A program made the position numbers and the translations under genes. Shown here piece after piece: positions 4,746 to 64,000 of a stretch of DNA of 64,000 nt; positions within the stretch are counted from its first letter, which is position 1, and each line of letters starts with the position of its first letter. Source of the stretch: Bretschneidera sinensis (taxonomy: Eukaryota; Streptophyta; Magnoliopsida; Brassicales; Akaniaceae); NCBI GenBank assembly GCA_023935145.1, contig CM043705.1, positions 57,320,084-57,384,083 on the forward strand, written 5' to 3'. The notes beneath the pieces are model-generated. The model had not been told where the DNA came from and made no database searches. It worked only from the letters and a program-made list of their open reading frames with translations.

Positions 4746-5378
4746 CGATCGATCTCAATGATGTGCGCTCGATCGCACACTGGACTATGCACTCGATCGC
4801 AGATGTCGTGCGCTCGATCGCACACGATCAGCCTTTTCGTCGAACAGCTTATGTGCACTAAAAAGACAAGCTATGGTTTGCAAGTGTGGAACTCGTTCCT
4901 AACCCCCTGCAAACGAACAATCACACAATCATACACAAAATATCATATATGTAGAATGAATTGCACAATTTCTATTATTAAGATTTTTGTGTGTGTGTGT
5001 AGAGTACCTTGTGGATTAATGGGGATGGGGATGGAGTAAATGGTGGTTGACGGTGATGGAGGCAGTGGATGGTGATAGAGGATGGTGGAGATGGAAGTGG
5101 TGATGAATGATGCTATGTGGTAATGGTGAGAGGGAGTCGTATGAGTGGAAACGAGAGTGTCTGAGGGCGAGTGCGCGAGCGATTAGTGACGAAGGAGTGA
5201 GTGAGTGTGAGTGTGAGTATGAGTGAATTTTCAGACTTATAGCTAAACAACTGTCTACCGCGAGTGCGTTCGATCGCACGCGGGTTATGCTCGATCGCAT
5301 CTGTGCGCTCGAACAAGTTTGAAGGACACATTCGATCGCACACCTACGCTCGATCGCACTGGGGAATGTGATCGATCG
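4746..5378 (-). promoter_or_regulatory. Candidate internal promoter of ATH1 ORF2 with CGATCG palindrome arrays
   Basis: Between the integrase stop (5558) and the ORF2 ATG (4718) are two clusters of CGATCG-centred sites, mostly within GCGCTCGATCGCA. Cluster 1 starts at 5271, 5292, 5333, 5351 and 5373, plus a degenerate site at 5310. Cluster 2 starts at 4746, 4770, 4794 and 4815. On the minus strand a TATA-like CTATAAG lies at 5236-5242, 29 bp downstream of cluster 1. The same motif forms arrays in the LTR (12274-12371). The promoter role is inferred from position. Confidence 0.5.
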
Positions 5379-11225: not shown

Positions 11226-12566
11226 TATTGTGCGTTTATATACCTAAATAAATAGGTGAATAATCGTACTAGTTATACTTGCAAGTGCACAAGGTCATCA
11301 GTGTAGTCTAGTGTGCAAAAGCAAGGTCATCTCCACAGGGATTGGTAAAGTTGCTTTTAGAATCAGTTTCTCTAAAGTAAAAAAGAGATAAATAATTGTT
11401 GGAAGGTGATTTGATAATAATAAAGACATAGGGCTTTGATATCCACCACTAGTCATACTTTCCCAATTATATAAGGCATCAGTGCACTAGCTTTATTATG
11501 TATACCTACTGGTTGCCAACCTAAGGGCATGGTATCTACTCCTTAAGCTATTGATTTCCTTAAGCCACAAGTTAGGCATGGTATCCACTCTAACTTTTTT
11601 CTTCCTTAAAGGATTCAGCATGGTATCTGCTTGAGTTGTTCCTTAAGAAAACATAAGTACTATGGAAATCGACAACCACATGAGACCTAGGGCATGGTAT
11701 CTACTCCCGGTTTCCCATGTTGATTAACCCAGGTATCTAGATAAGATATCCCTTGTTACTAATGTTAGACCCAGGACTCGGTCATCCAAATTGATCTAAC
11801 TAACCTATCTATACCACATGCATACGTTGGCCTTACACATACATATAAGGAAATTAAATAAGCACAGGCATTAATCAAGTTAAGTAACATAATAAAAGCT
11901 ATTGGCAAAGATTTTATCAATGAATATAAATATGGGAATGCATAACTAGGGCTTCAATCGAGCTCTATAAGAAAGTTAGTTACACATACTATCTAAAGTA
12001 AACATTATAAATAAACTAAACATTAAAGGAGAAGAATAAACCCGAGAGAAGAGGCGTCAATTCTCTTCCAAGCTCTTCAACTCCAAGTAAAAGAAAAGAG
12101 AAAAGTGTTTTCTATCTGAGGTGTGTCTTTTCGTGTGTGAGTTACAAGTGTATTTATAGGTCTTTGAGAAGTTCTACGAGACCCATGAGTTCCTAAACCT
12201 TCCTAAAACGAAGATTCTATTATTTCCAAAATAGGGTTCTGCAGTTTACTGTTCACGCCCATACATGTGCGCTCGATCGCATATGTCTTGCGCTCGATCG
12301 CAGTGTGCACTCGATCCTTCATGTGTGCGCAGATCGCAATGTGCGCTCGATCGCATTGCATGGCGCGATCGATTGTAATTTGTCCAGAGAATGCTCCAAG
12401 GATTCCAGATTTCTTCCTTTAAGTGCCTAAACTGCTTTTTTTTCTCCAAAACCCTATAAAAACATGTAAAACACACAAATGGAGTAAAAGAGACCAAATT
12501 AACGTGATTAAGGACCTAACAAATGTAAATAAGGGGGCTTAAATATGAATATTTAAGCATCTATCA
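11226..12566 (-). repeat. ATH1 5' LTR (1341 bp)
   Basis: On the minus strand it starts TGATAGATGC and ends about ...GCACAATA; the right edge is sharp where SIR2 gag begins at 12567. It contains a CGATCG array (12274-12371), a TATA-like TATAAATA near 12150, and a long 3' part (11270-12030) collinear with ATH2 LTRs, including the recurrent GGCATGGTATCTACT phrase. The inner boundary is set by alignment to ATH2, not by a partner LTR. Confidence 0.8.
12274..12371. promoter_or_regulatory. CGATCG palindrome array in ATH1 U3
   Basis: Sites within GCGCTCGATCGCA-like repeats start at 12274, 12295, 12348 and 12366, with degenerate ones at 12312 and 12331. Spacing is 17-21 bp. The same motif recurs in degraded form in ATH2 LTRs at 34027-34160 and 38956-39080. 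Confidence 0.75.
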
Positions 12567-14009
12567 TTTAGGCATTGTATGAATGGTATCTCCAATAGTG
12601 ATTTCCTTAGATGGAATTCTAGGTCCCTTTTCAATGACTCTCCACATATTATAATCTTGTCCTTCAACAAAGATTTTCATTCTATTTTTCTAATAGTTAT
12701 AGTTTGAGCCATTGAATAAGGAAGGCCTAGTATATGAGTGTCCCTCAGAATAGCTATTTGCTACCATTAGATCAACTCAAGGATATTAAGCCTAAAATTG
12801 AGAACGAGGCTCTGATACCAATTGTAGACTGATGTTTCAACCAAAAAGGGGGGTGAATTAGGTTTTAAAAACTTTTTGCGGATTAAAACACAAGTTTATT
12901 TAAATAGATAACACAACAAGCATATAACAAGTAATATGTGCTGTAAATAAAGAGTTTAAGGAATAGAGGATGCAAACTCGGTTTATAGTGGTTCGGCAAT
13001 ATCGGAATCGTTCCGACCCTACGTCCACTCTCTTCAAGGAACCTCCTTAAAGTACTTCACTAAGAAACTTAGTTGTGCAACTTCACGGGTGTTGCATAAA
13101 CCTTACAATCCCTTCCTCTTAGAAGCAAACCTCTTCCTCTCGAAAGCAAAAACCCCTTCCTTTCGGAAGCAAATCCCTTCCTTTCATAAGCAAATCCCCT
13201 TACAATAAATACTATAAAGAAAACAGTAAAGAGACAACAATGGAAGCTTATACAACTGAATAATATCTCTCTTTTTAGGCAAAGCTTGAAGAATGGCTCA
13301 ATAATCAATTTTTCAAAGCTTTTTGGGTATCAATGAGTAAAACTTGTTTTAATGTATATAGCTATGTTTTTAAATGCTTAATAGAGTGGGTTTATATAGC
13401 CTTGAGGTAATATACCTGTTTGTAACTGATTTTGTCCATTTAGGTACAAGTTGTGCTTAAATCTCGCGTCCCAGCAGTCATATTTTTTGAACTACCAGTC
13501 GGCTGGGTTCTCTTTAAAAATCACATTTTTAAGGCTGTTGAAGGTACCAGTCGACTGGGTATGACTTACCAGTAAACTAGAAACCTTCTGCCCAGATTAC
13601 TAGTCGACTGGGTAGTTCTTACCAGTCGACTAGGAAGTCTCTAACCAAAACACCAATCGACTGGTATGAAGCATCCAGTCGACTGGGAACATACTGACCT
13701 TTATACCAGAAGATTGGTATAAGTACCAGTCGACTTGGTTGCTTTAACAACCTGGTATTCATGTGTTGAATAGATTTTAACTTTAAAAACATTTGTTTAA
13801 AAGGTTATGTTAAAATGTTTTTTCAAATAGAGCCATTGGACAAGCTAATTACTTGAACAAGTGAGACTACAACTTGTTTGATTCGGGTTGAGTTCTTGCA
13901 CTTTGATCCTTGGTTGAATGCTCTTATTGCTTAATACACTTAGATAGCATTGTTAGTATAAAAGGAGTTGTGTTTTGTCATCATTAAAATAAAGGTGAGG
14001 GTCAACAAT
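12567..14009 (-). mobile_element. SIR2: Sirevirus-like copia remnant (gag start, PBS, 5' LTR)
   Basis: This is the host element of ATH1. The minus strand holds the first ~66 codons of gag from the ATG at 12767 (MVANSYSEGHSYTRPSLF), with one stop where SIR1 has Trp. The primer site TGGTATCAGAGC lies at 12809-12820 and the 5' LTR at 12823-14009. The gag is cut at 12566/12567 by ATH1; the remainder should lie left of the window. The right LTR end is 18 bp from the duplicated TCGAC flanking ATH2. Confidence 0.85.
12823..14009 (-). repeat. SIR2 5' LTR (1187 bp)
   Basis: It begins TGTTGACCC and ends CTACA on the minus strand. The palindrome array (about 13495-13735) is decayed, with few exact CCAGTCGACTGG sites left, which suggests an older copy. 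A hairpin unit CTTCCGAAAGGAAG is intact at 13156-13169, with three degenerate neighbours between 13110 and 13190. Confidence 0.85.
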
Positions 14010-14032
14010 CATCTTTATTATTAAATCGACCG

Positions 14033-51828: not shown

Positions 51829-53008
51829 TGTTGACCCTCACTTATATTTTAATGATGACAAAACACAACTCTTATTATACTAACGATGCTATCTAAGTGT
51901 ATTAAGCAATAAGAGCATTCAACCAAGAATCAAGGTGCAAGAACTCAACCTGAATCAAACATTAAGTGAAGACAGAAGAACTAGAATAGGTCTATGGTAT
52001 AAAATCAAGTTACAAGTCTCACTTGTTCAGGTAATTAGCTTGTCCAATGGCTCGTTTTGAAAAACCATTTTCACATAACTTTTTAAACAAATGCTTTTAA
52101 AGTTAAAATCTATTCAACACATGAAAACTGGGTTGTTAAAGCAACCCAGTCGACTGGGTACTTATACTAGTCTTCTGGTATAAAGGTCGGTATGTTCCCA
52201 GTCAACTGGATGTTTCATACCAGTCGACTGGTGTTTTGGTCAGAGACTTCCTAGTCGACTAGTAAGAACTACCTAGTCGACTGGTACCTTCAATAGCCCT
52301 AAAAATAATATTTTTAAAGTGGACCCAGTCGACTGGCATTACGACCCAGTCGATTGGTAATTCGAAAAATATGACCGTTATAGCGCCAGACTTGTACATT
52401 TGATGTACAAAAGCGTTCCAAATTAATTAAGAACGGAAATATTTCATCAAGGCTATTTAAACCCACACTACTGAGCATTTGAAGGCGAGTATTATACATT
52501 CAAACAAGTTTTCACTCATTAATACTCAAAAAGCTTTGAAAAATAGATTGTTGAGCCATTCTTCAAGCTTTACCTAGAAAGAGAGATATTATTCAGTTAT
52601 ATAAGCTTCTATTGTTTTCTATCTACTGTTTTCTTTACAGTATTTGTTGTAAAGGGATTTGCTTCCGAAAGGAAGAGGTTTTGCTCCCGAGAGGAAGGGG
52701 TTTGCTTTTGAGAGGAAGGGATTGTAAGGTTTGTACAACACCCGTGAAGTTGCACGACTAAGTTTCTTAGTGGAGTACTTCAAGGAGGTTCCTTGAAGAG
52801 AGTTGATGTAGGGTTAGAACGATTTGGATATTGCCGAACCACTATAAACTGAGTTTGCATCCTCTATTCCTTAATCTCTTTATTTACAGCATATATTGCT
52901 TGTTATACTCTTATTGTGTTATTTGTTTTAATAAACTTGTGTTTTAATCCGCAAAAAGGTTTTAAAACCCAATTTATCCCCCTTCTTGGGTTGAAACCTC
53001 AGTCTACA
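51829..53008 (+). repeat. SIR3 5' LTR (1180 bp)
   Basis: It starts TGTTGACCCTCAC and ends CAGTCTACA. The palindrome array runs 52146-52357, with sites at 52146, 52167, 52198, 52220, 52251, 52273, 52325 and 52346 (some degenerate). A TATA-like TATTTAAA is at 52454-52461. Hairpin units are near 52672-52730. Confidence 0.9.
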
Positions 53009-53010
53009 AT

Positions 53011-53022
53011 TGGTATAAGAGC
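53011..53022 (+). other. SIR3 primer binding site
   Basis: TGGTATAAGAGC is one mismatch (C to A) from the tRNA-iMet primer site and lies two bases after the LTR, as in SIR1 and SIR2. Confidence 0.85.
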
Positions 53023-55512: not shown

Positions 55513-56335
55513 CTATGGCATAGATGACTTGGTCATGTGAACATGAACTTGCTAAAAATCGTTTTAAGAAAAGACTTAGTCATTGGACTTTCCAAAATCA
55601 ATTTTGAAAAAGATAAAGTATGTGATGCATGCCAAATGGGAAAACAAACTAGAATTTCTTTTAAATCAAAGAATATAGTCTCAACTACTAGACCTTTGGA
55701 ACTTTTGCATATGGACTTATTTAGTCCGATAAGTACCATTAGTTTAGGTGGCCATCAATATGCTCTTGTTATTGTTGATAACTATTCAAGATATACCTTT
55801 GTTATTTTTATTGCTTACAAGGATGAAGCTTTCAAAGGATTTAAAAATTTTTGCAAAAAGGTTCAAAATGAAAAAGGAATTTGTATTTCAAGCATTAGAA
55901 GTGATCATGGAAAAGAATTCGAAAACTAAAGTTTTTCAAAATTTTGTGATGAAAATGGAATTGATCACAACTTTTCAGCCCCTAGAACTTCTCAACAAAA
56001 TGGAGTTGTTGAGAGGAAAAATAGAGTTCTAGAAGAATTTTCAAGAACAATGCTTTGTGAAAATAATTTACCAAAATACTTTTGGGCTGAAGCGGTAAAC
56101 ACCTCTTGCTATATCTTAAATAGAATTTTAATTAGGCTTATGCTTGACAAAACTCCATATGAATTATGGCAAGGTAGAAAGTCTAATATCTCTTATTTTC
56201 GTACCTTTTGTTGTAAATACTTCATACTAAATAAAAATAAAACTAACTTGGGTAAATTGATTCTAAGACCGATGAAGGAATATTTTTAGGATATTCAACC
56301 TCTAGTAAGGCTTATAGAGTTTTCAACAAGAGAAC
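55513..56335 (+). pseudogene. SIR3 integrase domain
   Basis: The pre-integrase zinc region has [11 protein letters not shown] and [14 protein letters not shown]. The core has [12 protein letters not shown] (first Asp; WGP altered), ISSIRSDHGKEFEN (second Asp) followed by a stop at about 55928, and APRTSQQNGVVERKNRVLEE (Glu). All three catalytic residues appear present. A frameshift near 56262 precedes GIFLGYSTSSKAYRVFNKRT. Confidence 0.88.
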
Positions 56336-58215
56336 TCTAGTGGTAGAAGAATCTGTACATGTAACTCTTGATGAAACTAACCCAATTAGTAGTAGAGTAG
56401 TTTCTTTTAATGATGATGCAGATTTTATTCCAAGAACGGAAACTTCTACTCCCATTGTTGACCCAAATGAGAGTCCACCTCAAACAAATGGAGAGATGGA
56501 GACTCTCAAAGTCGACCAACCATCTACAAATCGACAAGAGGATAGTCTTCCCAAAGATTGGAGGTACGTAAATTATCACTTGATTGATCAAGTGATTGGT
56601 GATCCTTCACAAGGGGTAAGAACTCGTTCCTCTATTAGAAATATTTGCAATTATGTAGCCCATTTGTCTCAAATAGAACCTAAGACATTTATTGAAGCTG
56701 AAAAGGATAATGATTGGATAATTGCAATGCAAGAAGAAATAAATCAATCTGAAAGGAACAATGTATGGAATCTAGTTCCTAGACCTAAGAATCATACAAT
56801 AATTGGAACTAAATGGGTATTTAGAAATAAGATAGATGAAAATCGAATAGTGACTAGAAACAAGGCTAGACTAGTTGCTAAGGGATATAATCAAGAAGAA
56901 GGAATAGACTTTGATGAGACCTATGCTCCTATAGCTAGATTAGAAGCTACTCGAATGTTGTTGGCCTTTGCATGTTTTAATAAGTTTTAAGTTATTTCAA
57001 ATGGATGTAAAGAGTGCCTTCTTAAATGGATTTATAGATGAAGAGGTTTATGTTGAACAACCTCTTGAATTTCAAAATCCTAGTCTTCCAAATCATGTCT
57101 ACAAGCTTTCTAAGGCTCTATATGGGTTGAAGCAAGCTCCAAGGGCATGGTATGAAAGACTAAGTAAATTTTTTATTAACAATAACTTTGTAAGAGGTAA
57201 GATAGACACAACCTTCTTCACAAAAACTCACAAAAGTGACAATTTGCTAGTCCAAATATATGTTGATGATATTATATTTGGTGCTACTAATGAATCCATG
57301 TGTCAAGAGTTTGCTAAGTGCATGCAAGGTGAATTTGATATGAGCATGATGGGAGAGCTTACCTACTTCCTTGGACTTCAATTAAAACAACTAAAATGTG
57401 GCATCTTCATCAATTAATCAAAGTACACTAAGGACCTACTAAAGAGGTTCGGGATAGAAAGCTGAAAGCCACTTGGAACACCCATGAGCACCTCGACAAA
57501 GCTTGATCTTGATGAAGGAGGTAAATGTGTAGATACTAAATATTATAGAAGCATGATAGGAGCTTTGCTTTATTTGACTGCAAGTAGACCTGATATAATG
57601 TTCAGTGTATGCATGTGTGCTAGATTTCAAGCTAATCCTAAGGAATCACATGTAGTTGCAGTAAAAAGAATCCTTAGATATCTAAAAGGAACTCAAACCA
57701 TAGGATTATGGTACTCTAGAGATTCATCTTTTGAGCTTGTAGGATATTCAGATATTGATTTTGCTAGATGTAGGTTAGATAGAAAGAGCACAAATGGAAC
57801 ATGCCAATTCTTAGGTGCAATGTTAACCTCTTGGTTTTCCAAGAAACAAAACTCAGTTGCACTATCAACCACCGAGGCGGAATATATAGCAGTTAGAAGT
57901 TGTTGCGCTCAAGTATTATGGATGAAACAACAACTAGATGACTATGGCATGATCTTTAAAAGTATCCCAATTCATTGTGATAATACTAGTGCTATCAACC
58001 TAATCAAGAACCCTATTCAGCACTCTAGAACTAAACACATAGAAATTAGACATCATTTCTTAAGAGATCATGCCAAAAAAGGTGATATAAGACTAGAATT
58101 TATACCATTAGAAGATCAAATAGCTGACATTCTTACAAAACCTCTAAGTCAAGCTAGCTTCTGTAAAATTAGACTATTAATGGGATTGTTGGACTATGAT
58201 AAACTGAATGTCTAA
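56336..58215 (+). pseudogene. SIR3 reverse transcriptase and RNase H
   Basis: RT motifs in order are WNLVPRPKNHTIIGTKWVFR, KARLVAKGYNQEEGIDFDET, a stop/frameshift at 56988, FQMDVKSAFLNGFIDEEVYV, LYGLKQAPRAWYERL and the catalytic IYVDDIIFGAT (57256). A stop at 57415 leads to KYTKDLLKRFG. RNase H has YYRSMIGALLYLTASRPDIM, ALSTTEAEYIAV, PIHCDNTSAINLIKNPIQHS and KHIEIRHHFLRDH. The frame ends ...LLDYDKLNV at 58215. With only a handful of lesions it is the best-preserved pol in the window. Confidence 0.92.
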
Positions 58216-58355: not shown

Positions 58356-58660
58356 CCAGTCGACTGGTAAGTCTATCCCAGTCGACTGGAAAGTCACTAC
58401 CTAATTTCCTAGTCGACTAGTAAGTTAGTACCAGTCGACTAGTTCAATTACACCTTGTTTGGAGCCAAAATTTTAAAATTCAGTTAGCACCCCAGTCGAC
58501 TGGTAAGAACTACCCAGTCGACTGGCATCTCTCTGCCTATTCTTCCAGTCGACTGGTACCCTGACCCAGTCGACTGGTATGCAAAATGTTCATCTTTACA
58601 AAAGGACCCAGTCGACTGGTATCCTTACCCTAGTCGACTAGAATCGCGATTCTATAAATA
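58356..58660 (+). promoter_or_regulatory. Second palindrome array plus TATA-like box upstream of SIR3 ORF2
   Basis: CCAGTCGACTGG-type sites start at 58356, 58378, 58409, 58431, 58492, 58514, 58545, 58566, 58608 and 58630. Spacings are 22, 31, 22, 61, 22, 31, 21, 42 and 22 bp. TATAAATA is at 58653-58660, 12 bp past the last site. The ORF2 ATG is 210 bp further. The arrangement copies the LTR U3 logic inside the element. Promoter activity is inferred. Confidence 0.65.
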
Positions 58661-58870
58661 GGTTCTTCATTTTTTCTAGATTTTTACGCCATTTTCAAAA
58701 ACCCTGCTTTCTCTCTTTACAAAATCTCGCCATTTTGATCCAAAAACCACCAAAACAACACCTAAACACAACGATCTACTCATCCAAAACCTTATTTTCA
58801 ACTTTCTACAGTTAAAATCTCTCATTTCTACCAAAAACCACTTTTACCCAAAAACTCCATTTCTTCCAAA

Positions 58871-60111
58871 ATGTCCAAAAGAATCCAGATAAAGACCACC
58901 GTTGGGGGACCCCATGTGCCTACAAGGCCAAGGTCCACCAAATCCATGGCTCCAGAGTCACGGGGGAAGGGTGTGGTGGGCTCATCAAGCAAGAAGCCAG
59001 AACAAAGCTTGATGAGTCTCTGTTTTCCAGTCCTACAGTGAAGGCCAGGTATAATTCAGTCATTCGCAACAAGAAAATCATGATGGGTAGAGTTGTCGAC
59101 TTCGACTCAATTCATCATGGTAATTTTGATATTTTACCTGCCTTCGAGGCAATACACCTAACGCCACTGGTCAAGGTGCATGAGAAATACTACCCAAGAC
59201 TGATTCATCAGTTCTATGCAAACTTGGTGAAACCCAGTCCACTGGCTCTGAGATTTAGAACCAGTGTTATAGGTGTGGAGTTTGAGGTCAACACTGACCT
59301 CTTAATGAGCATTTTAAGGATCCCTGTGGGAGGGATCCAATGGAGTCTGAATGGATGGCCAGATAATTTCGAGGTTGAGGAGGCTTGTCAGATAGTTAGG
59401 GGTGACCCTAACTATATGTACAGACCCACTACATTTCACATATGTAGTGATATGCCCCTAGACTCGAAATTGTTCAAACTCATAGTGAGTTGAACCATCC
59501 ACCCAAGACTAGTGAGTCGAAGGTATCTATCTAAAATAGATACTGTATTGATTTGGTGCCTTAAAACTGGGTACCACTTCAATATATACCCCCTACTGCT
59601 CGCCAACATGATTAATGGTGAAGTGAGTGACTCTGGGTGTCTTCCCTATAGGATGCTCATCACACTCATACTCCAGCACTTCCAAGTGCCTCTCCTCGCC
59701 TCCGAGGCTCAGGATATCGGGCCAAAAGACATCATCAGTGTCTACTCACTGAAGAAGATGGGATGCATGGTCCGCGACGGCTTCATTTACTCAAAGGCCA
59801 GGAAGCACATACGAATCAGGGAGGATGACAGCATTGATGATGAGGATGAGGATGTTGCTGCTGCTGCTGATATGGATACGAATACCCGAGAACCTCCCAT
59901 AAGTGCCTCGAGTGCTGGTCAGGCTGGGTATGGCGATCTACTTCAGGCTATCACAAGCCTCCAGCTGATCATGCAGTCCGAATTCCAGACGTTAAGCTCA
60001 TCCATTGAGCACCTACGGGATGACTTCGAGCTGCACTGTGAGCGCACCGAGAATTCCTTAGTTAAGATTCGAGATCTCACTCGTGATGGCTCAGACTCTC
60101 CCACTCCATGA
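58871..60111 (+). pseudogene. SIR3 ORF2: extra ORF after pol (env-position 'plant transposon protein' type)
   Basis: The ATG at 58871 (context AAAATGTCC) opens MSKRIQIKTTVGG, a basic, Ser/Lys-rich N-terminus. A 1-nt frameshift near 59000 moves into a frame with FDILPAFEAIHLTPLVKVHE, PRLIHQFYANLVKPSP and GVEFEVNTDLLMSILRIPVG. A stop at 59491 is followed by DTVLIWCLKTGYHFNIYPLL and RMLITLILQHFQVP. The C-terminus is acidic (DDEDEDVAAAAD) and then possibly helical. It resembles the uncharacterised domain often annotated as a putative plant transposon protein. I see no clear transmembrane segment, so 'envelope' would be by position only. Function is unknown. Confidence 0.7.
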
Positions 60112-60806
60112 GTCACTTCACTATCTCCCTTTTGATGTACTTAGTATTTTCAGTTCATAGTGTCTTAGCACGGACATACTTTATTGTATTTATACTTATG
60201 TTTCGGCTCTACGAAGCCTCATTTGTATAATACTGGTGTCTCTATCGATTATTTATGCTTAGACCTATTTCATACACTTGTTTTACATGTGTGTAATATG
60301 GGTGCATGCTTTATATCTGCTTAAATTTGGATATATGCTTTATATCTGCTTCGGCATTCATGGAAACTTTCGGTTCTTCCCGGGAAGGCTTCCAAACTCC
60401 GAATGGAGCCAAATTTTTGCATAAAAGTTTTTTTATACATACTCTAGATGACTGTGGTAGCTAAGTAGCTTATTTTTTAGTTTCTAGCCCCTTTTGTTAC
60501 TATTGTCAAAACGGGAGAGAAATATGAGAAAATGAGATAAAAATGTAAAACAGAAACCAGTGCATAGATTTAGGGGGAGCACTACTCCAAAGAATATGGT
60601 GTATAATTCAATACAGTATATCGATTAGTTGATTTGCATATAAATGGATTGGTTTGGCTGCATATAAATGTCTTTTTACTTCTTTACAGGTCAGTTTTAC
60701 TTAAAAAACAGAGGAAACTCTGGTCGATTTTTCGCAAAAACCTTACACTTAGTCTTTTATAACTGTTTTCTCTTATTAGTTTTGTCATCATCAAAAAGAG
60801 GAAGAT
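60112..60806 (+). other. SIR3 3' non-coding region with purine tracts
   Basis: No gene is apparent; the open frame at 60668-60874 crosses the LTR edge and is not credible. TTTAGGGGGAGCACTAC at 60568-60584 is Sirevirus-like. CAAAAAGAGGAAGAT immediately before 60807 is the probable plus-strand primer. AAAACGGGAGAGAAATATGAG near 60508 is a third purine-rich run. Confidence 0.7.
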
Positions 60807-62063
60807 TGTTGACCCTCACCTGTATTTTAATGATGACAAAACACAACTCTTATTATACTAACGATGCTATCTAAGTGTATTAAGCAATAAGAATATTCAA
60901 CCAAGGATCAAGGTGCAAGAACTCAACTTGAATCAAACATCAAGTGAAGACAGAAGAACTAGAATAGGTCTATGGTATTAAATCAAGTTGTAAGTCTCAC
61001 TTGTTCAGGTAATTAGCTTGTCTAATGGCTCGTTTTGAAAAACCATTTTAATATAACTTTTTAAACAAATACTTTTAAAGTTAAAATCTATTCAACACAT
61101 GAAAACTGGGTTGTTAAAGCAACCCAGTCGACTGGGTACTTATACCAGTCTTCTAGTATAAAGGTCAGTATGTTCTCAGTCGACTGGATGTTTCATACCA
61201 GTCGACTGGTATTTTGGTCAGAGACTTCCCAGTCGACTGGTAAGAACTACCTAGTCGACTGGTAATCTAGGCAGAAAGATTCCAGTTGACTGGTAAGAAC
61301 TACCTAGTCGACTGGTACCTTCAATAGCCTTAAAAATAAGATTTTTAAAGTGGACCCAGTCGACTGGTATTAAGACCCAGTCGAATGGTAATTCGAAAAA
61401 TATGACTGTTATAGCGCCAGACCTGTACATTTGATGTACAAAAGCGTACCAAATTAATTCAGAACGGAAATATTTCATCAAGGCTATTTAAACCCACACT
61501 ACTGAGCATTTGAAGGAGAGTATTATACATTCAAACAAGTTTTCACTCATTAATACTCAAAAAGCTTTGAAAAATAGATTGTTGAGCCATTCTTCAAGCT
61601 TTACCTAGAAAAAGAGATATTATTCAGTTGTATAAGCTTTTATTGTTGTCTCTCTACTGTTTTCTTTACAGTATTTGTTGTAAAGGGATTTGCTTCCGAA
61701 AGGAAGGGATTTGCTTCCGAAAGGAAGGGGTTTTGCTTCCGAGAGGAAGGGGTTTGCTTCCGAGAAGAAGGGATTGTAAGTTTTGTGCAACACCCGTGAA
61801 GTTGCACGACTAAGTTTCTTAGTGGAGTACTTCAATGAGGTTCCTTGAAGAGAGTGGACATTGGGTACGAACGATTCCGATATTGCCGAACCGCTATAAA
61901 CTGAGTTTGCATCCTCTATTCCTTAATCTCTTTATTTACAACACATATTACTTGTTATATGCTTGTTGTGTTATTTGTTTTAATAAACTTATGTTTTAAT
62001 CCACAAAAAGGTTTTAAAACCCAATTCACCCCTCCCCCTCTTGGGTTGAAACCTCAGTCTACA
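60807..62063 (+). repeat. SIR3 3' LTR (1257 bp)
   Basis: It matches the 5' LTR but has an extra two-palindrome unit (about 61265-61317), accounting for most of the 77-bp length difference. The TATA-like TATTTAAA is at 61485-61492, followed by four hairpin units. Confidence 0.9.
61693..61770 (+). repeat. Four tandem GNRA-loop hairpin units in the SIR3 3' LTR
   Basis: Units start at 61693, 61714, 61736 and 61757 (21-22 bp apart). The first two read CTTCCGAAAGGAAG, the third CTTCCGAGAGGAAG and the fourth CTTCCGAGAAGAAG. The first three have perfect 5-bp stems. They lie about 200 bp downstream of the TATA-like box, in sequence expected in the RNA leader. Confidence 0.8.
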
Positions 62064-64000
62064 GGGGGAGACTTCATTTAGTAAAGATAAATATAGATAT
62101 TTGTTTTTGCTCGATCTACCTACTCATGAGTCAATTGTGTCCACCGAGTCAGCCCTATCTGATCTAATTCCAGCCGAACCAGCTCCAGCTGACCCACTTA
62201 TATCGGCCGAACCATTCTAGCCGATGTCAACACGCACACCGGCCCACACTAGACCCACGACAGAGCATAATGAACGTCTTGACTCTATGCGATTTGTGCA
62301 GGCTTATTCAAGGAGAAGAGACTCGGATCCTAATCCCATGCAAGTCCAAGCTTCAACTCCTAATCCTGATAATGAGGTAAATACAATTTCTGACCAATCT
62401 CAATTAACACCAGACCATGATCTCCCAATTACTATTAGGAAAGGCACAAGAGAATGCACAAAACACCCATTGTATCCTTTGACAAAATTTGTCTCTTTTG
62501 ATAAATTCTCACCCTCATATAAAACCATTCTAATCAGTCTAAATACTATTTATATTCCTGATACTTTATCTGAGGCATTATCTAATGAGAATTGGAAAAA
62601 TGCCATGAGTGAATAAATGCAGGCACTAGAGAATAACCAGACGTGGGAAATAATTAACTTACTAACTAGAAAGAAAGTTGTGGGTTGAAAGTGGGTGTTT
62701 ACCGTAAAATACAAGTCAGATGGCTCTCTTGAAATATACAAAGCCAGACTTATGGTGAAAGGATACACACAGACCTTTGGTGTGGACTATCAAGAGACAT
62801 TTGCTCTAGTAGTTAAGATGAACACGGTGAAAGTTTTGTTGTCATTGGTTGCTAATTTCAACTGGTATTTGGAGCAATTTGATGTAAAAAAATTCTTTTT
62901 TTCATGGCGAATTATAAGAGGAGATATACATGGGCATTCCTCCAGGATATAAGCAGCAACTGAGAAGCAACAAAGTCTGCAAGCTAAGGAAGGCGCTCTA
63001 TGGCCTAAAACAATCTCCACGAGCTTGGTTCGGAAGATTCACAAAAGTGATGCTAGCCACCAGATACAAGCAAAGTCGGGGAGATCATACACTCAGATGC
63101 AGGGGGAGTAACAGCCCTTTTAGTGTACATCGATGACATAATAGTCACAGGAAACGATGAGAAGGAGAAGAAAGTTCTACGAAGATGTTTTGTTAGTGAA
63201 TTTGAGATAAAAGAACTTGGGAGGTTGAAATACTTTCTAGGAAAACAGGAATATGTGACTGATCTCCTTAAGAAAACACGAAAGTCGACATGTAAACCAA
63301 TTTCCACACCGATTGAACAAAATCATAGACTTGAAGAAGCAAAAGATGATCCAGATGTGGACAATGAAAGGTACCGAAGACTGGTTGGGAAGCTCATATA
63401 CCTTACCCGCACACGGCCAGACACTGCTTATGCCGTGAGTGTTGTCAGTCAATTTACACACAGCCCGAGAGAAGTTCATCTACAAGCTGTCCATCGCATA
63501 CTACATTACTTAAAGGCTAATCCAGGACAAAGGATTCTATTTAGAAGAAACACGGGGTTAGACCTTGAGGCGTATACAGATGCTAACTATGCAAGTTCAC
63601 CGGATGATAGAAGGTCCACGACATGCTATTGCACTTTCCTAGGAGGCAATCTTGTAACATGGAGGAGTAAGAAGCAGAATGTAGTGGCAAGATCAAGTGT
63701 TGAAGCAGAGTTTAGGGTGATGGCGCAAGGAGTTTGTTAATTACTATGGCTCAAAATAATTCTAGAAGACTTAAAGATTAAGTGGGATGGACCGATCAGG
63801 CTATTTTGTGACAACAAGTCGGCTATCAACATCGCTCATAATCTCGTTCAGCATAACCGGACAAAGTATATTGAGGTAGATAGACATTTCATAAAAGAGA
63901 AGCTGGACAATGGATTAATCTGCACACTGTACGTCCCAACAAAGAATCAACTTGTTGATGTACTTACAAAAGGATTGAACAGTGAAGCATTCCAACGACT
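62064..64000 (+). pseudogene. COP3 reverse transcriptase and RNase H (continues beyond window)
   Basis: After SIR3 the linker (HESIVSTESALSDLIPAEPA) leads to RT: LPITIRKGTRECTKHPLYPL, KWVFTVKYKSDGS, ARLMVKGYTQTFGVDYQE, FDVKKFFF (frameshift), LRKALYGLKQSPRAWFGRF and the catalytic VYIDDIIVTGND at 63123. About 15 residues between YFLG and KQEYVTDLL (63230-63250) are deleted. RNase H follows with EAYTDANYASSPDDRRST, TWRSKKQNVVARSSVEAEF, a stop at about 63738 and CDNKSAINIAHN. The 3' LTR is outside the window. Confidence 0.88.

Follow-up and report, generated by a model that had tools for sequence, protein, structure and literature searches.

A 64-kb stretch of the Bretschneidera sinensis genome, analysed at its full length (the window), holds a degenerate retrotransposon that we assign to the Sireviruses. 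An array of palindromic boxes, of the same kind as those in the U3 region of its long terminal repeats (LTRs), lies in the linker between pol and an extra 3' open reading frame, ORF2. With a probability of about 0.76, we propose that the segment 58356-58870 serves as an internal RNA polymerase II promoter of ORF2 that has its activator in common with the LTR. Directly documented are the boxes, their phasing, their spacing to a TATA box, the conservation of this module, the composition of the leader that follows, selection on ORF2 and the occurrence of the same altered box in both arrays of a divergent branch. The features of this segment and of ORF2 are as follows.

58356, 58378, 58409, 58431, 58492, 58514, 58545, 58566, 58608 and 58630, forward strand: starts of the internal boxes, each with at most two mismatches to CCAGTCGACTGG
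58356-58442, forward strand: block A of the internal array, with four boxes in this copy
58492-58641, forward strand: block B, six boxes at steps of 22, 31, 21, 42 and 22 bp, adjoining the TATA box
58642-58652, forward strand: 11-bp link from the last box to the TATA box, containing TCGCGA
58653-58660, forward strand: internal TATA box TATAAATA, beginning 23 bp downstream of where the last box begins and 11 bp past its end (58641)
58685-58870, forward strand: predicted 5' leader of the ORF2 mRNA, G-poor and in this copy free of ATG, with an inferred start site
58699-58705, forward strand: AAACCCT, followed by a CT run, in the predicted leader
58871-58873, forward strand: ORF2 start codon, the first ATG past the TATA box, out of frame with pol
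59038-59493, forward strand: ORF2 piece a, N-terminal part of PF20167, its frame broken here
59512-60111, forward strand: ORF2 piece b, C-terminal part of PF20167, with a possible coiled-coil tail (judged on a relative)

Palindromic boxes in helical phase upstream of ORF2

Between 58356 and 58641 the linker contains ten boxes within two mismatches of CCAGTCGACTGG, a match that occurred zero to one time per simulated 64-kb first-order sequence (n = 5). Successive boxes start 22, 31, 22, 61, 22, 31, 21, 42 and 22 bp apart. This places them in register with a 10.5-bp repeat (R = 0.94, best period 10.50), a coherence equalled by 0 of 20,000 random placements. The four LTR arrays of the window gave R = 0.93-0.96, values that fractions between 0.00005 and 0.00035 of the random placements matched or exceeded. 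The array between pol and ORF2 with a 21-22/31 bp phasing, as claimed in a preliminary description of this DNA, was thus confirmed, with additional steps of 42 and 61 bp and with LTR arrays of the same box and phasing. Across 38 copies from the same genome, introduced below, 260 of 288 box steps lie within 1.5 bp of whole helical turns. The 61-bp step accounts for 21 of the 28 exceptions; it measures six turns minus 2 bp and is compensated by the neighbouring 22-bp steps.

Box variants of the form CTAGTCGACTAG, at 58409, 58630 and 52251, depart symmetrically from the main form; because such variants fit C-to-T decay of CHG sites on both strands, methylation of the boxes is suggested. A further 'box' with one mismatch lies at 59234, inside ORF2, and three of the first four relatives have it as well, at +604/605. 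It was rejected as a coding coincidence, the two relatives inspected reading CCAGTCCTCTGG inside KPSPLAL codons. A pattern of paired boxes had 0 matches in viral_contigs, and titles and abstract openings in the literature revealed nothing related to the 12-bp box.

An internal TATA box at a fixed distance from the last box

As described previously, a TATA box lies within 12 bp of the array, TATAAATA starting 11 bp past the end of the last box. To place it in context, relatives were sought in the host genome (1.21 Gb, 550 contigs). The first set comprised 18 fetched stretches, eight of which contain the pol end, the array and ORF2; in these eight loci and in the window, the TATA box begins exactly 23 bp downstream of the first base of the last box (+23; 9/9). 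A similarity search with 58630-58900 as query, in which 40 of 2989 initial candidates were scored, gave 30 loci (L023-L052), of which one was the window itself and was dropped. Among the combined 38 copies, the TATA box is at +23 of the last box in 36; in the other two it is at +45, the intervening last box having decayed.

Since these 38 copies had been chosen by similarity, a second sample was selected by a pol-end motif only (692 forward and 730 reverse matches), consisting of the first 20 loci on contig 1 outside the earlier sets. It yielded 18 arrays of the CCAG type, one of the ACAG type (L056) and one locus without boxes (L065). ORF2 was found by tblastn within the fetched stretch of 15 loci, and that of L056 in the adjoining stretch. 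Fifteen of these 16 ORF2 elements (14/15 plus L056) have the TATA box at +23, L057 being the sole exception, with TTTAAATA instead; L067 and L068 are similar and 30 kb apart, and may not be two independent counts. Other TATAWA matches in the 15 ORF2 loci number four in about 18 kb. In two differently drawn samples, the +23 spacing is thus seen in 36/38 and 15/16 elements.

Five array-bearing loci gave no ORF2 match, two of the first set (L006 and L007) and three of the pol-motif sample (L055, L060 and L069). All of them except L060 also lack the +23 TATA box and the leader. Block B is absent from L006, L007 and L055, and only its first two boxes are present in L069. In L006 and L007 the first half of the array is followed by an AT-rich stretch common to both and unlike the ORF2-bearing copies.

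Conservation of the module and composition of the leader

Conservation was evaluated in 25 copies, using the 247 of 300 pairs whose leaders are at most 0.80 identical. In these divergent pairs, the last box, the link and the TATA box average identities of 0.87, 0.85 and 0.86, respectively, against 0.56 just 3' of the TATA box and 0.42 in the spacer preceding the last box. The first alignment, of five copies, had given 0.95 for boxes, 0.70 for spacers and 0.81-0.83 for flanks, the value for boxes being favoured by their selection on similarity. The TCGCGA of the link is itself a short palindrome, which reads TCGTGA or TCACGA in several relatives.

About 10 bp past the TATA box the G content falls, and it recovers near the ORF2 ATG (25 copies). 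The leader averages 4.8% G in 15 copies against a background of 18%; background windows at or below 5% G make up 0.95% of 8106 (both strands, module windows included). Of 54 leaders, 34 contain AAACCCT, all but one of these at 37-60 bp past the TATA box and mostly at +45 to +48; its total over all fetched loci, leaders included, is 77 in 502,662 bases on both strands. We take this motif to resemble the plant telo-box, which occurs near the start sites of some plant genes. The ATG that had been noted 210 bp after the TATA box is present at 58871. It is the first ATG past the TATA box, both in the window copy and in three relatives, where it opens an intact ORF2 of 418 codons.

ORF2 under selection

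In the window copy, ORF2 is not as it had been described: its frame is broken, and its two pieces match PF20167 (putative plant transposon protein) below the cutoff, at 24 and 16.8 bits. The ORF2 of the relative L008 reaches 54.6 bits at a cutoff of 45. Its N-terminus is polar, and in a crude analysis of this one protein no clear transmembrane segment or signal peptide was found (maximum 19-residue hydropathy mean 1.19). A crude heptad count marks its C-terminal part as a possible coiled coil, with a second place scoring equally high. As L008 ORF2 matches PF20167 and lacks a clear transmembrane stretch, the envelope label for ORF2 seems doubtful. The ORF2 piece found nothing in a public protein set at E<=0.001.

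Nei-Gojobori dN/dS values were obtained for ORF2 piece a from the 46 copies that it matched without gaps over at least 86 residues, giving 1025 pairs (16 outside the bins) that are not independent of each other. The median falls from 0.61 at dS <0.1 to 0.14 at dS 0.8-2; by this measure, ORF2 decays neutrally after insertion and is under purifying selection along the active lineage.

The same box change in LTR and linker

In the LTRs, the distance between array and TATA box is of another order: among matches with a box within 400 bp upstream, 8 of 10 LTRs place their TATA box at +106 to +108, counted from the last LTR box, and the other two at 122 and 128. With the boxes masked, spacers of linker and U3 aligned at local scores of 17-22, compared to shuffled means of about 19, although one identical 10-mer spacer, TAAGAACTAC, is common to both. 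An origin of the linker array as a duplicated LTR block was thus unsupported by the masked alignments. Of the earlier view that the module is an internal copy of U3, the common box and phasing stood, whereas the spacers and the core-promoter geometry (+23 as opposed to +106 to +108) differ. Because the spacers are unrelated and the TATA distance is different, we do not regard the linker module as copied U3, but as another core promoter that has the same boxes upstream of it.

In a divergent branch (L056/L073, L074 to L079), LTR and linker alike carry ACAGTCGACTGT boxes. In its four elements, whose ORF2 is 31-38% identical to that of the window, the outer box positions are A..T instead of C..G: counted around an inner core with at most one mismatch, A..T pairs make up 17 of 21 in the LTR and 11 of 12 in the linker, with no C..G. 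Two of these elements were picked on their LTR boxes and two on their linker boxes, the other array serving as the test; LTR and linker were paired into one element by distance and orientation. Both arrays are almost throughout C..G in the window copy, the L001/L005 element and L019, as they are in L020, whose LTR and linker may not belong to one element. A box starts 23 bp before the TATA box in all four divergent elements (two of these boxes have 3 mismatches and were read by eye), and AAACCCT is at +47 in two of the four leaders. In the four ACAG-type LTRs, the TATA box is at +117 to +119.

The common box and its joint change in the divergent branch support co-regulation of ORF2 with the LTR, as previously suggested, and make it plausible. 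Table 3 of Bousios et al. 2010 (PMC2829016, drawn on here, like PMC3414828 and PMC6317226, for part of its content) lists nine elements bearing ENV, the envelope-like gene, each with a single consensus that covers both LTR and linker, which suggests that joint change of both arrays is general.

The element and its surroundings

The element is bounded by two LTRs that are 88% identical in a self-BLAST, which marks the insertion as old. It is also degenerate, both pol and ORF2 being interrupted and reduced to several open pieces. Its remaining features are these.

51829-53008, forward strand: 5' LTR, by self-BLAST against 60807-62063
52146-52357, forward strand: LTR (U3) palindrome array, seven boxes within two mismatches, phasing R = 0.96 at 10.5 bp
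52454-52461, forward strand: TATA-like TATTTAAA of the LTR, at +108 relative to the first base of the last LTR box
53009-53022, forward strand: primer binding site (PBS) junction ATTGGTATAAGAGC, with one mismatch when compared to ATTGG+TATCAGAGC, the Sirevirus form published in PMC2829016
53607-54032, forward strand: gag piece with a CCHC zinc knuckle (PF00098)
55537-55929, forward strand: pol integrase piece (PF00665; PF13976 falls 0.1 bit short of its cutoff)
56340-56990, forward strand: pol reverse transcriptase piece (PF07727 RVT_2)
57484-58215, forward strand: pol 3' end with stop at 58213-58215, without Pfam match; used as tblastn query for homologous linkers
60572-60579, forward strand: upstream polypurine tract (PPT) octamer AGGGGGAG, exact, a motif taken from PMC2829016
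60807-62063, forward strand: 3' LTR, with an array at 61124-61388 (nine boxes) and TATTTAAA at 61485

Based on the PBS junction, the extra PPT octamer, the C-rich LTR end, RVT_2 and the extra 3' ORF, we classify the element as a degenerate Sirevirus (Copia/SIRE, SIRE/Maximus lineage). The C-rich integrase signal, CCCCTCCCCCTC, was recognised by eye near 62029, close to the LTR end. The terminal PPT octamer is degenerate (AGAGGAAG) and followed by AT/TG before the 3' LTR; one exact upstream octamer was seen, compared to a published average of four per element (PMC2829016).

Reverse-strand partial copies of the same Sirevirus group lie at 1-2303 and 12567-14013, with LTR arrays at 1680-1995 (12 boxes) and 13495-13737 (seven boxes). 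Outside the Sirevirus element, CG-rich tandem units around TGCGCTCGATCGCA with a period of 17-21 bp, possibly another type of repeat box, are found at 4749-4822 and 12265-12355. Open pieces also occur 3' of the 3' LTR (62224-63740), of which that at 63123-63740 resembles Copia by eye and may belong to another element.

Discussion

An ORF2 promoter of its own, as put forward in the preliminary description, appears well supported by comparison: the TATA spacing, the conservation, the G-poor leader and the purifying selection on ORF2 all speak for it, as do four of the five array loci without an ORF2 match, in which the +23 TATA box and the leader are missing too. In the mechanism that we propose, a putative dimeric DNA-binding protein would occupy the palindromes, all facing one side of the helix, with the box closest to the core starting 23 bp before the TATA box. 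Transcription would begin about 30 bp past the TATA box and yield a capped mRNA for ORF2, whose G-poor leader would measure about 190 nt and whose first AUG would be used. With the same protein on the LTR boxes, genomic RNA and ORF2 mRNA would answer one signal via two core promoters. We are inclined to go one step further and to suppose that two differently built core promoters stand under one helix-phased palindrome code, ORF2 (a conserved PF20167 protein, not an envelope) being made from a separate, co-induced mRNA. The ORF2 promoter would then possess parts resembling those of plant genes, namely a TATA box 23 bp from a box and an AAACCCT-CT leader.

Several observations weigh against an ORF2 promoter of this design. 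ATGs ahead of that of ORF2 are found in 18 of 38 leaders in one set and in 7 of 16 in another; the recurrent ones (+33, +119 and +156) stand where other copies have ACG and, judged by eye, fit CpG decay, but the remaining ones do not. Aligned leaders share, in 19 of 23 cases, one AG column (CCTAAG, CTAG, CCAAG), where a weak splice acceptor may reside. In the divergent branch, leaders are less G-poor (5-9% at +30 to +200), and their first ATGs are found at +88 to +189; the joint change of its LTR and linker boxes may be a single evolutionary event. In the five-copy alignment, link (0.855) and TATA box (0.85) were barely more conserved than the leader (0.81). L060 has a last box and a TATA box at +23, yet no ORF2 in the 1.2 kb fetched. 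Block A also occurs in array-bearing loci where ORF2 was not found, and is therefore not tied to ORF2. Finally, the copies are related by descent, so that the counts do not represent independent events, and a TATA-like sequence by itself is no proof of a start site.

Among the alternatives, the one that survives best, though we consider it unlikely, is that ORF2 is expressed from a spliced subgenomic RNA begun in the 5' LTR, the internal array being secondary. Splice acceptors have been predicted for the plant Gypsy elements BAGY2 and Athila, which likewise have an extra 3' ORF after pol (PMC2829016). In our element, the boxes contain CAG, some box-spacer junctions read GGTAAGT and are donor-like, and the AG column could provide an acceptor. 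This column, however, closes a CCCTAAG-type motif and has no pyrimidine tract immediately upstream; the window, L054, L058 and L059 lack this AG. Between TATA box and ATG, no AG is common to all five copies of the first alignment; unlike in BAGY2 and Athila, no acceptor common to all compared copies was found, and the TATA box is conserved. Splicing also leaves the conservation of the TATA box and its fixed +23 position unexplained.

Still less probable, in our estimate, is that host silencing or chromatin organisation is what mainly targets the boxes, with the TATA box incidental. Each box offers one CG and two CHG sites, and several box variants resemble, by eye, C-to-T decay at such sites; a 2016 study reportedly dealt with palindromes of maize Sireviruses and the epigenetic response. 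Such a role does not account for the conservation of TATA box and link along with the boxes, nor for a G-poor stretch that begins just past the TATA box, and the helical phasing points to protein binding. Promoter and silencing roles are not exclusive, and both sides may use the same boxes.

Translation of ORF2 from genomic RNA is very improbable, whether ribosomes were to read through, to reinitiate or to enter internally at the G-poor leader. Stop-codon suppression is described for SIRE1 (PMC2829016), and a G-poor leader could favour internal entry; but ORF2 starts in another frame than that of the pol stop and each frame contains 9-11 stops between the two, which excludes readthrough, and the conserved +23 TATA box would be unaccounted for. 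That the array is a functionless remnant of LTR sequence once copied to this place is hardly credible, for although box and phasing are identical in kind to those of U3 and one 10-mer spacer is identical, the spacers are otherwise unrelated, the TATA distance is different, and the box-TATA spacing has been retained in branches with ORF2 at 31-38% identity.

The system is not undescribed, as the preliminary description had it: boxes 5' of the envelope-like gene and the idea of an internal promoter are both in PMC2829016. There, palindromic boxes are reported in the LTRs of 13 Sireviruses and in the linkers of nine, those with ENV, with 77 of 79 linker boxes upstream of ENV; the boxes are held to favour the internal-promoter hypothesis of Peterson-Burch and Voytas 2002, the promoter not having been conclusively identified. 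These RM boxes resemble ours in that many palindromes lie in the LTR 5' of its TATA box and again 5' of the envelope-like ORF. With nine boxes in the 3' LTR and ten in the linker, the element is within the published definition of at least eight clustered boxes, whereas CCAGTCGACTGG lacks the CGG-CCG core found in 12 of 13 published RMs, a core that Tnd-1 lacks too. To what PMC2829016 describes, the present data add the fixed distance of a TATA box, the phasing of the boxes on the helix and the low G content of the leader. PMC3414828 names stop-codon suppression and an internal promoter as mechanisms and calls the function unproven. According to PMC6317226, 74% of SIRE elements possess an additional 3' ORF; whether such ORFs have a function is questioned there. 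In titles and abstract openings, with a coverage that excludes most subscription papers, we recognised no prior work on a Sirevirus internal TATA box or promoter. SIRE1 of soybean is likewise a Copia element with an extra 3' ORF, but the ORF studied here starts 658 bp past the pol stop and out of frame. In foamy viruses, with their internal promoter, and in the 35S/19S arrangement of CaMV, a downstream or 3' gene stands under a second promoter inside the element. Sequence and factors are unrelated to ours, and no activation loop is known here.

While the palindromes and the suspicion of a promoter were thus already published, the unit of box, TATA box and leader is added here. Sireviruses are very abundant in plant genomes, and the expression of their extra 3' ORF has been in question since the internal-promoter hypothesis of 2002 (cited in PMC2829016). 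The conserved unit pinpoints a predicted start site for this ORF, dN/dS places ORF2 under selection in this genome, and the boxes common to LTR and linker offer a route to the host factor.
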